Positions 29,648 through 38,607 of a stretch of 64,000 bases of DNA are shown piece after piece. The stretch covers positions 1-64,000 of the forward strand of contig NZ_MBPN01000003.1 in NCBI RefSeq assembly GCF_001695625.1, given 5' to 3'. Numbering within the stretch: position 1 is the first letter of the stretch; every line of letters starts with the position of its first letter. A model generated the notes under the pieces. It was not told where the DNA came from, made no database searches, and saw only the letters and a program-made list of their open reading frames with translations. The translations under genes and the position numbers were made by a program. Origin of the DNA: Pseudomonas defluvii. Its GTDB lineage: Bacteria; Pseudomonadota; Gammaproteobacteria; Pseudomonadales; Pseudomonadaceae.

Positions 29648-30050
29648 CGATAAGGGTGGCAGCTGTACGCGGGTTAGCAGACCAGGGATCAAGGAACCCG
29701 GCGCGCACGAAGGCGCCCCGCGCACAACCGCCATAACACAAGACAACAGTCACGAATCAAATCGTCTGCTGAACGAGTAATGGGCGCTGTATGCACCTTG
29801 ATCATTGGGCGGGCTGCTAAACCCGGTCGCTGGATTGGCAGCAACGCAGGGGGGTTAACGGGGTTGATGTGTGGATTCAAGCGCAGATGTGCGTGAGCTG
29901 ACGCGAACGTCCTTGGTAGCCGATAAGGGTGGCAGTTGTACGCGGATTGGTAGACCGGGACTCAAGGACCCCAGCGCACCCGAAGGCGCCCCGCGCACAA
30001 CCGCCATGACACGAAGTAACAGGCACGAATTAAAGCACCTGCTGAACGAG
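29648..30050 (-). repeat. Duplicated 130-bp GC-rich leader element (two copies)
   Basis: Copy A, 29648-29777, ends 45 bp before the DUF3077 start on the minus strand. Copy B, 29921-30050, is a direct repeat at a constant 273-bp offset. Both contain cgataagggtggcag, a GC-rich palindromic core around gaaggcgccccgcgcacaac and end in ctgctgaacgag. Such strong conservation including non-coding parts suggests a structured mRNA leader or a small repeat family. Copy B has no recognisable gene behind it. Nothing else is visible in the 870-bp gap apart from REPs from 30076. Confidence 0.6.
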
Positions 30051-34226: not shown

Positions 34227-34260
34227 GCAGGGGCTATACAACCCAAAGCAGTTATTCGCG

Positions 34261-34327
34261 AGCGGCAGAAGCCGACCCATGGCTGCCGGTGGCGACGGGC
34301 AGAAATCGGCCAAAAGCAGCCATTCAA
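34261..34327 (-). repeat. Dispersed palindromic repeat, copy R1
   Basis: It contains gccgacccatggctgccgg and aaatcggccaaaagcagcca, the reverse complement of the pattern in copy R2 (gcttttggccgatt ... tatgggtcgatt). Further copies are near 38745 and 41820/43549. It marks the left side of the accessory island. From 34330 to 34568 I see no gene, only a 12-bp palindrome CACCAATTGGTG (34547-34558) ten bases before the first cassette boundary. Confidence 0.7.
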
Positions 34328-34568
34328 GGGCGTCTAAGAAAGCTGAGGAAATCCCCCATTGCGTGGCAATCCCCTCAATGATTCCTGCATGGAGCCGACC
34401 CCCTTGTCTAGTACCCAGTCTGAAAGCTAATGTGCAATCCGGCCAACACGCTGGCAAAAGGCCTTGCCGGGTTGGAGCATAACTTCAGTGTCGGCGAAGA
34501 AAGCGCATCGTAGATGCTGTCAGCGCGCCTTCAATAGAATTTTATCCACCAATTGGTGTCTATTTATA

Positions 34569-34575
34569 GTTAGGC
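34569..34575 (+). other. Left boundary of integron cassette 1 (GTTAGGC core site)
   Basis: GTTAGGC is a canonical R-prime core (G^TTRRRY). It is the exact complement of GCCTAAC, the R-double-prime at the end of the same cassette (35266), as expected for a cassette inserted by an integron integrase. The protease gene starts seven bases later. Whether the sequence to the left is an attI or a worn attC is unclear. Confidence 0.65.
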
Positions 34576-34581
34576 CGCCCC

Positions 34582-35262
34582 ATGATTACCGCTAACATCT
34601 ACAATCGAGTTTTCTTCATCAAAGCGGCAGATTATGGAACCGCATTTGCCATTGACCACGGTGGCAAGCAGTACCTTGTAACCGCCAAACACCTGATTAA
34701 CGCGGAGAAACAAGAAACAATAAAATTCTTTTTTGATCGTAGATGGGTTGATATGCCAGTAGAGCTAATTGGATTGTGTAGAGGTGAGACGGACATAGCA
34801 GTTTTTAGAGCTAACCAAATTCTTTGCACGGGGGATTTACCTCTAGAGCCAAGCTCAGATGGCGTTGTGATCAGCCAAGACGTATTTTTTGTAGGCTATC
34901 CCTACAAAATGTGGACAGACGCAGGTAAAGCCATGAACGGACGGCCATGTCCTTTCGTTAAAAAAGGAATTCTCTCCTCGTCTTTTGTTGGAGATGACGG
35001 AATTCCTCGGTTATATGTTGATGCACTAAACAACCCAGGCTTCTCTGGTGGCCCAATTGTCTTTCAACCCCCAGGAAAAACCGAATACAAAATTGCTGGC
35101 GTCGTCTCAAAGTTCAGAATCGAATTTGAGAGGGTGATTGACCAAAGTGGAGATCACATAGAAATGACCGTGGCATATAACACTGGATTTCTTATGGGTT
35201 ATGACATTTCTAAAGCAATTGAGGTCATTGAGCGCAATCCAAACGGATTTCCTATACCGTAG
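34582..35262 (+). CDS. Trypsin-like serine protease domain protein (cassette gene)
   Basis: A 226-residue protein with a chymotrypsin-fold triad: His37 (TAKHLI), Asp71 (ETDIAVF) and Ser155 (GFSGGPIV). No signal peptide or membrane helix is seen, so it acts in the cytoplasm. Short one-domain proteases of this type occur in anti-phage and signalling modules, but its substrate is unknown. Base composition is clearly more AT-rich than neighbouring genes. It lies 7 bp after a cassette boundary and 3 bp before an attC-like site, with no promoter of its own visible. Confidence 0.8.
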   Translation: MITANIYNRVFFIKAADYGTAFAIDHGGKQYLVTAKHLINAEKQETIKFFFDRRWVDMPVELIGLCRGETDIAVFRANQILCTGDLPLEPSSDGVVISQDVFFVGYPYKMWTDAGKAMNGRPCPFVKKGILSSSFVGDDGIPRLYVDALNNPGFSGGPIVFQPPGKTEYKIAGVVSKFRIEFERVIDQSGDHIEMTVAYNTGFLMGYDISKAIEVIERNPNGFPIP

Positions 35263-35265
35263 CAG

Positions 35266-35341
35266 GCCTAACAAGTGGTTCAAATCGCTCGCTTCGCTCA
35301 CTGGGACGGGCTAAAGCCTGCCCCTTAACCAAACTTTAAAT
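35266..35341 (+). other. attC-like recombination site 1
   Basis: A 76-bp imperfect palindrome. R-double-prime is GCCTAAC (35266). L-double-prime GGTTCAA pairs with L-prime TTAACC leaving one extrahelical base, a hallmark of attC. R-prime is TTTAAAT (35335-35341), one base away from GTTAAAT. Its last six bases TTAAAT match the R-double-prime ATTTAAC at the end of the following cassette. The altered first G may have made the site inactive. Confidence 0.7.
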
Positions 35342-35354
35342 TCTTAACGAAATC

Positions 35355-36149
35355 ATGAACTCCGGAATAGAATTAGAAAAGCATGTCCGGCAGGTTTATT
35401 CCTTTCTTCTCAACATGAAAGATGAAGGCATTGTAGTTGGTCAAGATGTTCGAATTTTTGATAAGCTTGGTCGCTCTCACCAAGTAGATGTTTACTATCA
35501 ATTTGAGAAAGCAGGAATTATTCATAAGGTCGCAATTGAATGCAAAGATCACGGGCGACCAGTTGATAATGGGCATGTGGCCAAATTTTTTGGAAAACCT
35601 GCTAACGCTGGAAACATCCAGAAAGTGATGGTCTCTAGGCTTGGGTATCAGAAGCTTGCTTACGAAATTGCCGAAGACAACGATGTTATGCTTCTCACGG
35701 TTGACGACCTACCGAGATTTAACGAGTTGCTCGCAGAAAGGCTTAAAGCTGTAGCGCTACCCGATGAAAATACAGTCGGGGAGCCGTTCTGGACCATCAT
35801 GGAAAAAAGAGATGGTCGAGTTGCTGGTAGTTTCTTTGCTTATCCGCACCCAACAACTAATCGGCCGGAAATGCTGCTTTTTTTCTCAAAATACCATGCC
35901 GAACGGGCTTTTAAAGAAGCGCAACTTAGCGCTAATCAATGGTGCGTTAGAGGTATGCCTCAATATGTTTTCCGGGCTTTCCTATTGCAATTAGAGCTCT
36001 TCGAAATGAGAGGTTGCGGTGCGGCTGTGTTATTTGCGCCTCCAGGCGCACTTAAAGACAAGCCATTTATAACCCTCCCAGCTTCCAGAGAAGATCTAAT
36101 CGCGGAGTACTACAAGGGTGAACTACCCAGTATCAAAAGTCGCATTTAA
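35355..36149 (+). CDS. PD-(D/E)XK restriction-endonuclease-like protein (cassette gene)
   Basis: A 264-residue protein. Residues 1 to about 115 carry a nuclease core of the Mrr/restriction-endonuclease type: Asp45 (SHQVDVYY) and Glu62-x-Lys64 (VAIECKDHGRPVD), with a following helix (GHVAKFFGK). The C-terminal half (130-264) is of unknown fold. It would cleave DNA in the cytoplasm. The stop codon lies inside the R-double-prime site of attC 2, usual for tight cassettes. AT-rich and probably acquired. No cognate methylase is nearby, so it is not a classical restriction pair. Confidence 0.8.
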   Translation: MNSGIELEKHVRQVYSFLLNMKDEGIVVGQDVRIFDKLGRSHQVDVYYQFEKAGIIHKVAIECKDHGRPVDNGHVAKFFGKPANAGNIQKVMVSRLGYQKLAYEIAEDNDVMLLTVDDLPRFNELLAERLKAVALPDENTVGEPFWTIMEKRDGRVAGSFFAYPHPTTNRPEMLLFFSKYHAERAFKEAQLSANQWCVRGMPQYVFRAFLLQLELFEMRGCGAAVLFAPPGALKDKPFITLPASREDLIAEYYKGELPSIKSRI

Positions 36150-36215
36150 CAAAGCGCTGCTGTCGGACAAATTTTCCGCTGAGCTCCAAATTTGCCGAAG
36201 AGCGTGGCATTAGTA
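36144..36215 (+). other. attC-like recombination site 2
   Basis: A 72-bp imperfect palindrome. R-double-prime ATTTAAC overlaps the nuclease stop. Next comes AAAGC-GCTGC, then a central stem (CGGACAAATTT with AAATTTGCCG), then AGCGTGGC and R-prime ATTAGTA, one base from GTTAGTA. Layout and length match known attC sites with AAAGCGCTGC arms. As in site 1 the leading G of R-prime is substituted. A dispersed repeat starts immediately after. Confidence 0.7.
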
Positions 36216-36310
36216 ACCGCTTTTGGCCGATTGCTACCCTTCGCGAGACGCAGGTATGGGTCGATTGCAGCCATTCACGACAGGCCACTATCGACCCCAA
36301 GCTGCCGTTA
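36215..36310 (+). repeat. Dispersed palindromic repeat, copy R2
   Basis: accgcttttggccgattgct, then tatgggtcgattgcagccat and a mirrored end (tcgaccccaagctgccg). It is the same family as R1, R3 and R4. It begins directly at the end of attC 2 and separates the cassette pair from the next gene. The 36311-36418 remainder shows nothing recognisable. Confidence 0.7.
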
Positions 36311-36418: not shown

Positions 36419-37132
36419 CTATCCAGGCAAACGAGGCAGCCCCCACCCTCCTTGGCCATCCAATGACATTATCGATAACAAATAATTATCGATTTGCCTA
36501 AGGCTCACAGCGCCCTCATGGAGGTTCTCGATCAATTCGCGTAGATCGAGAACGCGAGTGCACCAATCGCCATAGCGATCAACTTTTCCAAAAACTCGCC
36601 AACCTCTGTAGGTTTGCCCCAATTCATCCATAACCCACGACCAGCCTTCACGAACATACGAATCTACGATGGGAAAAAACTCCGGACGATGGAAATGGAG
36701 ATATTTCGAAGCGAGACTGCTGTTTTCCCGGTTGTTAGCCTTGGAAAGTGCGCGACAACACTCTAGGTGAATTGCAACGACTTCTGGCAAACGATCCCTC
36801 GTAAGCCTGTCGCTCATTCCAATTGATGCCAGCATAGCAGCGCATCTCGACTCCGCAATATACTCGGAGGCTTCGATAATAACTTCAAGGGCCTGCCGTT
36901 CGTCCTTGATGTGCCCTCGGGTTTTCCTACGCTCTACCGAGGCAGAATAAGTACGACCTATGAGCATGAGCTTGCCAATTATCTGCGCTTTGTCGCTATT
37001 GCTGGGCTGGGCGGCAACCGCTTCGTAAAGCATTGAGTTCAATACGTCAAAGGGCGGACATCCCTGTGAATTTCCTAGCCACTGTGGCTGTGGTGGAAAG
37101 AGGGCTTGATAAGTCGACTTTTTATCTTTCAT
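36419..37132 (-). CDS. Uncharacterised 237-residue island protein
   Basis: I do not recognise this family. It has no signal or membrane segment. It is mostly helical, with a conserved-looking block ASKYLHFHRPEFFPIVDSYV at about residues 140-160. Similar 'K-x-L-H-F..P..FPI-x-D' patterns occur in some DNA-glycosylase-like and abortive-infection-type proteins, but I would not assign a function from this. A dyad TAACGTAT-N5-ATACGTTA lies 36 bp upstream of the start. Its position between defence-like genes suggests a similar role, by inference only. Confidence 0.6.
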   Translation of the reverse strand: MKDKKSTYQALFPPQPQWLGNSQGCPPFDVLNSMLYEAVAAQPSNSDKAQIIGKLMLIGRTYSASVERRKTRGHIKDERQALEVIIEASEYIAESRCAAMLASIGMSDRLTRDRLPEVVAIHLECCRALSKANNRENSSLASKYLHFHRPEFFPIVDSYVREGWSWVMDELGQTYRGWRVFGKVDRYGDWCTRVLDLRELIENLHEGAVSLRQIDNYLLSIMSLDGQGGWGLPRLPG

Positions 37133-37168
37133 AAAAATGCTAACTGACTAGAGTTTGATTATTACCAA

Positions 37169-37189
37169 TAACGTATGACAGATACGTTA
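37169..37189. promoter_or_regulatory. Operator-like dyad TAACGTAT-N5-ATACGTTA
   Basis: A perfect 8-bp inverted repeat with a 5-bp centre lies 36 bp before the start of the 36419-37132 gene and within its presumed promoter. The remaining 37190-37500 sequence is AT-rich. A plus-strand frame there overlaps the FRG gene and is not supported. Confidence 0.4.
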
Positions 37190-37500
37190 TCTAAGCGAGC
37201 GTTTTCACTAAAAAATTCGAAAACTAAGTAATTGCAAATTCTCCTTCCAAATTACCGTTAACTAAACCGCGCATTGTCTCCCATCATAAACGGGATGCTA
37301 CCTGAACATCCAATAGCAGTTAAAAATCTCGATGACAGCGCCACCGCAGTGTGCTGACGAAAATATTGCCACTATCAATCTCTCTGCCAGAAGATGCCAA
37401 AGTCGCCCAATTAGCTGCCCTTTACCCCGGGCAGCTAGCGGCCAAAAAGAGTAATGCGAAAAAGCCATCTGGCATCGCCAGAATGTTTAATCGGCAATAT

Positions 37501-38607
37501 TCAATACACTACCCTACGCATCGCGCTATTGGTCTTATCGACGATTCGATTGCGCATTACTTCGGTAAAGGAAGTCAGCTCCGGATAGATGAAATCTTTC
37601 GTGACTCCGTACAGATTAAGCTCCCGCTGTATCTCGATGCCCAAGGCCCCAGGAATATCGATTCTCAAAACCCCCATACTGCCATCCTTCTCGGCGAGAC
37701 TGACTGGGTCAGCGGACACGATGGTGTTCTGGCACGTAAAGTCCATAGCCCTGAAAACAGGCTGCGTAATATCTTTGGAGAACAGAAACACACCTTGTTG
37801 ATTCTTGATTCGAGGATTCAGCGGCAACGGCTCAATAATATAGTTAGTTGAGCTATGAATGGTGACCGCACTTAGTGGGGCAACCGAGTTTACGACCTCT
37901 TTATCTAGAAAATTTCTCATTTTATGAGCTGGCTTTCCTTGCAGCGTTCCAGCAATCTGCATGAAGTTGAGTGCAATTAAATCTGGATTTATTTTTACGG
38001 GAGGGATAAGAAATTCAGGCGAAGTAGATTTGTCAACGATGCCGTGGATGGCATCCAAGAGCTGATAATCAATGGCAGAGTTAAACCGATCGTCCACCAG
38101 CTTCCTAATCTCTTGCAGCCTAACCTGCTCGTCTCGAACCGAGGCAGTGAACGTGTCACTATTGGCTATCGAAATGGTTATGTTGTCGGGCGTATTGTAG
38201 TACATGAAGACCGAACAGTCGCGATCTTCTTTTGCCCTTTCCGTTGCAAAATAGAGCGCAACGAGCGGGTTTTTACTCCAGTCAACCAGACGGGTCTCGA
38301 GACCATAGTGCTGAGCAACCATCATCAGATCAAGATCGTTTAACTTGTAACTCTTTAGAGAATGCACCTCCTCGTAAGTCGGCATATTTTTCTTAAACTC
38401 ATTGAACAACGCCCTGGCTAGCTGGTAGGGGTAGGTAGTGTCGAAGGATGTATAATCATTTTTTTCAAGCAGACGGTAGAATGAGGCATTCACGTCATGC
38501 TTGCTGGAGCCTTGTCCTCGAAAAAATGCGGGCTCATTTTTCGGATAGAAATGCTTAACAATTCGCAAGAACGCGCCAACACTATTAATGGTCTCGAAAT
38601 CGCTCAT
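37501..38607 (-). CDS. FRG-domain protein
   Basis: A 368-residue protein with the FRG domain near its N-terminus: AFFRGQGSSKHDVNASFYRLL at about 27-47 (the defining F-R-G), then LMMVAQHYGLETRLVDWSKNPLVALYFAT, its most conserved block. FRG proteins are recurrent in phage-defence and toxin-like loci; the biochemical activity is unclear. The rest is of unknown fold. The gene is AT-rich relative to the chromosome and is bounded on its upstream side by repeat R3. Confidence 0.82.
   Translation of the reverse strand: MSDFETINSVGAFLRIVKHFYPKNEPAFFRGQGSSKHDVNASFYRLLEKNDYTSFDTTYPYQLARALFNEFKKNMPTYEEVHSLKSYKLNDLDLMMVAQHYGLETRLVDWSKNPLVALYFATERAKEDRDCSVFMYYNTPDNITISIANSDTFTASVRDEQVRLQEIRKLVDDRFNSAIDYQLLDAIHGIVDKSTSPEFLIPPVKINPDLIALNFMQIAGTLQGKPAHKMRNFLDKEVVNSVAPLSAVTIHSSTNYIIEPLPLNPRIKNQQGVFLFSKDITQPVFRAMDFTCQNTIVSADPVSLAEKDGSMGVLRIDIPGALGIEIQRELNLYGVTKDFIYPELTSFTEVMRNRIVDKTNSAMRRVVY

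Follow-up and report, generated by a model that had tools for sequence, protein, structure and literature searches.

Integron cassettes that stand apart from an integrase gene have mostly been described through their attC sites, and are read as debris or as off-target events. The terms CALIN and SALIN denote clusters of attC sites, or single attC sites, without an integrase (PMC12444791, PMC9229058), and the accessible part of the Shewanella report describes such clusters as often coexisting with an intI elsewhere in the genome (PMC9229058). The attC sites of Treponema phagedenis, which has no intI, were explained by an integron that had been lost recently; the same survey, in its accessible part, left attI out of account as less conserved than attC (PMC3607928), so that solo attI sites, those without an intI beside them, would stay hidden. 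A chromosomal integron is described for P. stutzeri (Holmes 2003; Coleman and Holmes 2005); in this type attI lies beside intI. Cassettes away from the main integron are also described for attG, a divergent genomic site (Loot 2024, Nat Microbiol), and attI sequence away from intI is described for Delta-attI cassettes, where, in the accessible text, it is a short attI fragment within class 1 or class 2 integron cassettes (PMC12901181). A search of the open-access literature brought no account of solo attI sites in Pseudomonas to our notice.

The locus described here lies in a 64-kb stretch of Pseudomonas DNA (the window, meaning the whole stretch that was analysed). It resembles a CALIN in having at least two attC sites close together and no adjoining intI; unlike a CALIN, it has an attI at its head and is one of a series of attI-headed, intI-free loci. 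Compared with a complete integron, the attI at the head of the array is present, with an exact core and one repeat deleted, and the adjacent intI is absent. The window shares a Pseudomonas host with the P. stutzeri integron, from which it differs in the absence of intI, in its leader, and in that several attI cores per genome are possible. Its target is a conserved attI, unlike that of attG insertion, and this attI is longer than the Delta-attI fragment, heads the array and has its own chromosomal place. The likeness to T. phagedenis would lie in cassettes that remain after the loss of intI.

We propose, with a probability of roughly 0.7, that the window contains a decayed copy of an integrase-free integron platform, of a kind that is probably loaded in trans. 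The locus would be an integron without an integrase, in which two cassettes follow a degenerate attI and its leader, and would belong to a Pseudomonas family of intI-less solo attI sites with precisely joined cassettes, two groups of which keep a fixed chromosomal place. Such sites would receive their cassettes via integron integrases encoded elsewhere in the cell. If this is true, solo attI sites with exchanged inserts would let one genome keep several capture stations under one enzyme.

Cassette boundaries and attC sites

The sequence-only reading had proposed two consecutive integron-type cassettes, and a script check of the letters bears out the ends that it assigned to both. Cassette 1 opens with GTTAGGC (34569–34575) and closes on the complementary GCCTAAC (35266–35272), while cassette 2 opens with TTAAAT (35336–35341) and closes on ATTTAAC (36144–36150); the start of each is the complement of its own R''. 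TT is preceded by T at 35335 and by A at 36209. The cassettes are AT-rich, as had been stated, with a GC content of 0.42–0.45 against approximately 0.57–0.62 on the left; to the right it is 0.44–0.51. Four promoter-like sites, versus 3.1 in shuffled sequence, correspond to chance level and agree with the claim that the genes are promoterless, although this amounts to absence of evidence.

Table 1. Features of the locus in window coordinates (E-values of the attC covariance model are rough)
Feature	Position	Strand	Basis and remarks
Left copy of Pseudomonas intergenic repeat	34256..34317	.	Inverted, 74% complementary to 36219–36280; relatives scattered in many genomes
Leader of solo attI unit	34292..34540	+	Homolog of the solo attI leader in P. 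viridiflava; IntI proteins find no match here (tblastn)
Degenerate attI	34541..34569	+	A single CACCAATTGG repeat remains of the two; crossover follows G34569
Cassette 1	34570..35335	+	Begins with TTAGGC and runs up to the next crossover; its last base is T in place of the expected G; sequence and attC model
Trypsin-like peptidase gene (226 aa)	34582–35262	+	PF13365 (Trypsin_2), E 7.9e-11; GFSGGP and TAKH motifs by eye in the translation
attC1	35266–35341	+	90.5 bits, E 2.1e-24; alignment with 11 relatives; Pseudomonas type; R' TTTAAAT without leading G
Cassette 2	35336..36209	+	From TTAAAT to A36209; A where G expected; sequence and attC model
Mrr-type restriction endonuclease-like gene (264 aa)	35355–36149	+	PF04471 (Mrr_cat), E 1.7e-6; open reading frame
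attC2	36144–36215	+	34.7 bits, E 1.9e-7; alignment with 7 relatives; R' ATTAGTA without leading G
Right copy of the same repeat	36219..36280	.	Begins just after attC2

A covariance model for attC was trained on 32 sites, taken from other Pseudomonas genomes and from plasmids, with the two window sites excluded. It gave exactly two matches at E≤10 in the 64-kb window, 0.8 kb apart, and these are the two places where attC sites had been predicted. The outcome named beforehand as a refutation, that neither site would match an attC model, was thus not observed. The predicted fold stands in part: the model matches, and the extrahelical base and paired arms are seen in the alignments, but when attC1 was folded by minimum energy alone, neither strand formed a full-length hairpin. 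An Rfam search of the window reported no attC family, just C4-type antisense RNAs. When the whole genome was scanned (150 of 1508 first-look candidates were scored), the next matches were weak and lay on contigs C118 (E 0.001 and 0.27) and C351 (E 0.16). Contig C118 appears to carry an array of class 1-like cassettes, whose genes include those for acetyltransferase, MBL-fold, transpeptidase-fold and hexapeptide proteins.

The two sites belong to different lineages. attC1 is of the type of Pseudomonas arrays and has 55 distinct relatives among the compared loci (74–95% identical), one of which lies on a plasmid, in the first cassette after intI1. attC2 has seven distinct relatives among the same loci (85–92% identical), and similar sites occur on Shewanella, Vibrio, Marinobacter and related plasmids or in ICE-like regions, where the annotation makes them appear isolated. 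Sites of this type at four loci on plasmids or ICE-like regions (L047, L048, L049 and L051) adjoin single genes, with no arrays visible in the annotation; the neighboring genes are TIR/macro-domain genes, metal transporters and mobile mystery proteins.

The leading G of R' is gone from both window sites, as a script confirmed, and is retained in most relatives. It is kept in 50 of the 55 relatives of attC1 (of the other five, two have A, two are without an R' box and one is misaligned) and in six of the seven relatives of attC2. Since this G belongs to the 5'-GNT-3' motif given for IntI1 in the accessible part of PMC10127599, its loss has probably impaired both window sites, and the earlier suggestion that the array was thereby ‘locked’ is plausible.

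An attI at the head of the array

The 28–34 bases preceding cassette 1 recur in other Pseudomonas, several times beside arrays, and the same core lies approximately 0.12 kb from an intI in genomes G014 and G001. A 26-bp attI pattern, derived from these copies, is matched exactly at 34547–34572. Scanned over the GTDB species genomes, this pattern defined 50 loci, all in Pseudomonas or Stutzerimonas except for two contigs of one gammaproteobacterial MAG. In a chance control on 28 genomes, picked as carriers of the pattern, with up to three mismatches allowed, the reversed pattern gave no matches against 52 for the pattern itself. Viral contigs contained no match. Relative to the P. viridiflava site L182, the window attI has a 21-bp deletion between the two CACCAATTGG repeats (compared by eye with L182 and L137).

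At 16 of the 50 core loci an intI starts at about −131 from the core, in pieces or in several frames in four cases, and we take these intI-linked loci to be of the Pseudomonas stutzeri chromosomal integron type. A partial intI is present at five further loci (with split frames in L035), and tblastn detected none at 29. Two of these 29 were set aside as intI remnants, L119 by eye and L136 by eye together with a 21-residue stretch (E 0.004), which leaves 27 loci or, with the window, a solo set of 28. Because the core has intI-linked copies, the window pair sits at an attI without intI, and not at a random target. The description of the locus as an integrase-less attC cluster is thus correct for the missing local integrase, but overlooked the recognizable attI at its left end, which makes the locus an integron that lacks intI and not a free-standing group of attC sites. 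The sequence comparisons establish the identity of this attI as well as the absence of intI beside it: the matches of the window's genome to the integron integrase model TIGR02249 are all on other contigs, and tblastn with IntI proteins found nothing upstream of the array. A random-target (attG) reading was also considered, and was dropped on the match of the left flank to attI.

Cassette joining at solo attI sites

No intI was found within 2.4–3.0 kb upstream of the 20 longer non-linked loci and the window, save for a weak stretch in L181 (the same locus as L136). The attC model finds a site downstream of 22 of the 28 solo sites within the available stretch. Three of the six others (L109, L129 and L135) had less than 500 bases of room, and attC appears on extension for two of them, L129 (as L183) and L135 (as L179); L113, L124 and L140 have no attC by the model. 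The three variable bases that follow the crossover fit the R'' of the first attC in all three positions at 17 of the 22 sites. The joining total for solo sites is 57, compared to a mean of 32 in shuffles, none of which (0/10,000) was as high; full matches are found at 7 of 13 linked sites and at all seven remnants. Precise joining at solo sites is demonstrated by these counts, and the window is itself an attI with a precisely joined cassette and no intI. Two or three attI-like cores are present in 19 of the 28 carrier genomes, and one in the window's genome.

By eye, tRNA-like 3' sequences occur a few hundred bases away from three solo loci (L183, L184 and L187).

Different inserts between conserved flanks

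Left flanks sort 14 solo sites into two orthologous groups, alpha (six sites) and locus 2 (eight sites), and pair two more. Four of the six alpha loci and seven of the eight locus-2 loci could be extended, the other three being at contig ends. In all nine pairs of orthologous solo loci, the alignment of the left flanks stops between +3 and +16 from the crossover. Over the seven loci compared in the alpha and locus-2b groups, the left flanks are 91–96% identical up to the crossover, and the inserts differ.

The locus-2b members are from Pseudomonas sp. 8O, P. chengduensis 402 and P. toyotomiensis. Their left flanks are 94.6–96.0% identical, with alignments that end 4–5 bases beyond the crossover, and their right flanks resume at +1956, +1156 and +581 to +589, within the last attC, at 90–93% identity. 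Array DNA is shared in none of the three pairs. The alpha loci compared are those of P. chengduensis 402, P. indoloxydans, P. composti and P. alcaliphila. Here, the left flanks are 91–93% identical as far as +3 to +16, the right flanks begin again at approximately +1101, +761, +2798 to +2824 and +4601 with 88–92% identity, and insert DNA is shared in two of six pairs (178 and 88 bases). The alpha loci have a less clean boundary on the right: at three of them, the last attC detected by the model and the right flank are separated by 0.5–0.8 kb of DNA that is not shared. No attC was found by the model at the alpha locus of P. indoloxydans, whose insert can thus be called no more than a putative set of cassettes. 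The four locus-2a loci share their left flanks, and not their right flanks, with locus 2b; their right sides contain shared and repeated blocks and were not counted as evidence. These alignments demonstrate differing inserts between conserved flanks in related species. A conserved place with exchanged inserts is thus seen for the alpha and locus-2b loci, and not for the window or its own group (beta), in which no matching right flanks were found.

Leader, phylogeny and a promoter-like element

The leader of the window (−278 to −14) is 86% identical over 266 columns to that of L182 from P. viridiflava ICMP 19473 (−298 to −35). It is weakly shared with P. subflava, GD04019 and one P. kuykendallii site (72–76% over 58–120 bases), and was not found in plasmids. 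In trees built on 118–140 bases of leader plus core, the solo label requires 3–4 changes versus 17 in shuffles. The 140-base tree places 24 of the 28 solo sites outside the linked clade, and the window falls with seven other solo sites into an all-solo clade of eight (support 97/98 and 99/99). The 75-bp core alone fails to set solo and linked sites apart (11 changes), and the very long branch of the window in the core-only tree is put down to its deletion. The remaining four of the 28 solo sites (L104, L109, L113 and L114) group with the linked clade, and may simply be decayed integrons.

In the accessible part of PMC8876359, Pc of the P. stutzeri Q integron lies inside intI; a solo attI would therefore need a promoter of its own. 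A −35-like hexamer (at least 4/6) is found upstream of TATAAC at 15 of the 26 scored solo sites, at none of the 14 linked sites and at none of the six remnants, and at 12 of the 15 it is TTGCCA with a spacer of 19. The TTGCCA-N19-TATAAC-type element is a candidate promoter of solo sites. These 15 sites fall into about three chromosomal places, which implies few independent events behind the element. The window has two of six hexamer positions, and neither it nor its group shows the element.

Integrases elsewhere in the genomes

In the 27 genomes with a non-linked attI, a search with TIGR02249 at 1e-40 found an intI-family match elsewhere in 19, several of them partial or interrupted; eight genomes had no match at this cut-off, including the locus-2b genome G242. 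Within locus 2b, Pseudomonas sp. 8O has an open intI, in P. chengduensis 402 one intI contains a stop and a second is of a different type, and P. toyotomiensis has none. Among the alpha genomes, G225, G227 and G240 have an interrupted intI of the native type, and in G220 it is split. The matches in G238 and G245 are putatively of another IntI type, and G245 has partial ones besides. P. viridiflava has no TIGR02249 match at 1e-40. In the window's genome, all ten TIGR02249 matches are on other contigs, as is the class 1 context (an intI1-type gene and a class 1-like array), and an IntI1-type integrase (495 bits) is alone above the cut-off. It lies at the edge of contig C319, by a resolvase and a Tn3 transposase, and from its sequence we take it to be IntI1.

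The intI matches of L092, L156, L157, L163 and L164 have equal model coverage (3–313) and were taken as a second IntI type; L092 is the one that was aligned, at approximately 49% identity to the linked Pseudomonas IntI type.

Resemblance between attI cores was assessed in 14 same-genome pairs, in each of which a non-linked site was set against one that is linked or a remnant. One of the non-linked sites (L119) and four of the partners are remnants, and P. kuykendallii and P. daroniae contribute two pairs each. In their variable part, solo cores resemble the linked attI of their own genome more closely than other linked sites do (mean rank 5.8 of 21; 3 of 5000 permutations were as low), whereas the leaders just upstream show no such resemblance (mean rank 10.6; 2152 of 5000 permutations). 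The same core pattern would result from gene conversion between attI copies as from co-adaptation. The beta group of the window includes the two solo sites of P. kuykendallii, which rank 16 and 21 of 21 and do not resemble their linked attI. Judging from the better-kept relatives of the window, a single enzyme may load several docking sites of Pseudomonas integrons. To a fuller version, in which integrase-free attI platforms are old and separately inherited, with up to three cores per genome and in some cases a promoter-like leader, and one integrase serves several of them, so that the integron of this genus is a distributed system, we would give even odds.

Origin of the window locus

Trans action of an integrase, and that one ever acted at the window locus, are points that we infer. 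A simpler account is that the locus is an ordinary decayed integron, a full chromosomal integron that lost its intI and left an attI and two cassettes behind, in which case loading in trans is unneeded. The partial intI genes beside attI at other loci fit such decay, as do the damaging changes in the window's attI and attC sites, and the window itself gives no sign of cassette exchange after the loss of intI. However, a leader takes the place of intI in the window, in P. viridiflava and, more weakly, in others, all of them without intI; since it is common to several species, any loss of intI must be old. Moreover, the alpha and locus-2b inserts differ even though no member has intI there. We therefore consider simple decay doubtful. 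Under the preferred reading, an integrase-free platform probably loaded in trans, the window copy would itself be decayed, given an attI shorter by 21 bp, the loss of both R' guanines and an IntI1-type integrase as the only one in the genome. If so, the two cassettes are probably fixed in place. Several of the results above weigh against the preferred reading: the eight genomes with no TIGR02249 match, the interrupted or split native intI genes of the alpha genomes, the alpha boundaries on the right, the difference in right flanks between locus 2a and locus 2b, the beta group with neither matching right flanks nor core resemblance, the core-only tree, and the four solo sites within the linked clade.

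It is conceivable, although we think it improbable, that the unit was brought in as a block by a mobile element ending in the inverted repeats (Table 1), which would be compatible with the preferred reading. The repeats abut the unit on both sides. The homology between the window and P. viridiflava ends leftward inside the Pseudomonas repeat, at which the P. viridiflava unit also starts, and the outer flanks of the two differ; with an inverted copy right after attC2, this suggests that the unit may have moved as a block. On the other hand, the repeat is common in the genus, an unsystematic look noticed no transposase or target duplication, and the right side of L182 has, by eye, just looser repeat-like sequence. 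No contig among 199 genomes of the genus matched both outer flanks at E≤1e-20; G117 matches each flank on separate contigs, near contig starts, which is not decisive. An off-target insertion, in which the class 1 IntI1 of the same genome brought the cassettes into a genomic attG or a secondary GTT, appears very remote, despite the IntI1-type integrase and class 1-like array on other contigs and the description of attG insertion as a route (in the accessible parts of PMC12444791 and PMC12901181), because the target is a conserved attI core, intI-linked at 16 of 50 loci, and not an arbitrary GTT.

The intergenic repeat is of the GCTTTTGGCCGAT type; two copies are inverted around the cassettes and a further copy is present at 37414–37447. 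In L182, similar repeats seem, by eye, to flank a short tyrosine recombinase-like gene approximately 1.3–1.95 kb after attI. About 0.8 kb after the same attI there is, by eye, a reverse-oriented class 1-like attC, and the cassettes may face attI.

Cassette genes and neighboring genes

The assignment of a protease and a nuclease to the two cassettes holds at the family level (Trypsin_2, E 8e-11; Mrr_cat, E 2e-6). One stop codon lies within R'', as had been noted: it is that of the cassette 2 gene, the stop of the cassette 1 gene being outside R''. The peptidase has weak similarity to the LmuA and RT-protease models in PADLOC, and the Mrr-type nuclease has no PADLOC match at 0.01. As a guess, these domains are compatible with phage defence.

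Among plasmids, the protease has one (Rhodococcus, 34%) and the nuclease 12, all below 60% identity. A GTDB scan confirmed no close relative of the protease. Within the 199 genomes of the genus, the protease is found in the window's own genome alone, and the nuclease in its own genome and in three relatives at 34–36%. Empty or shuffled versions of the exact window locus, which the sequence-only reading had proposed to look for, did not turn up in these genomes.

Directly to the right of the cassettes (36419–38607) are a gene with a below-cut-off match to DUF6308 and an FRG-domain gene, the latter matching the PADLOC candidate family PDC-S15 (E 1.7e-42). To the left, the minus strand carries at 29652–30011 a pair of C4 antisense RNAs together with a c4-a1b1 target element, presumably a phage immunity arrangement.
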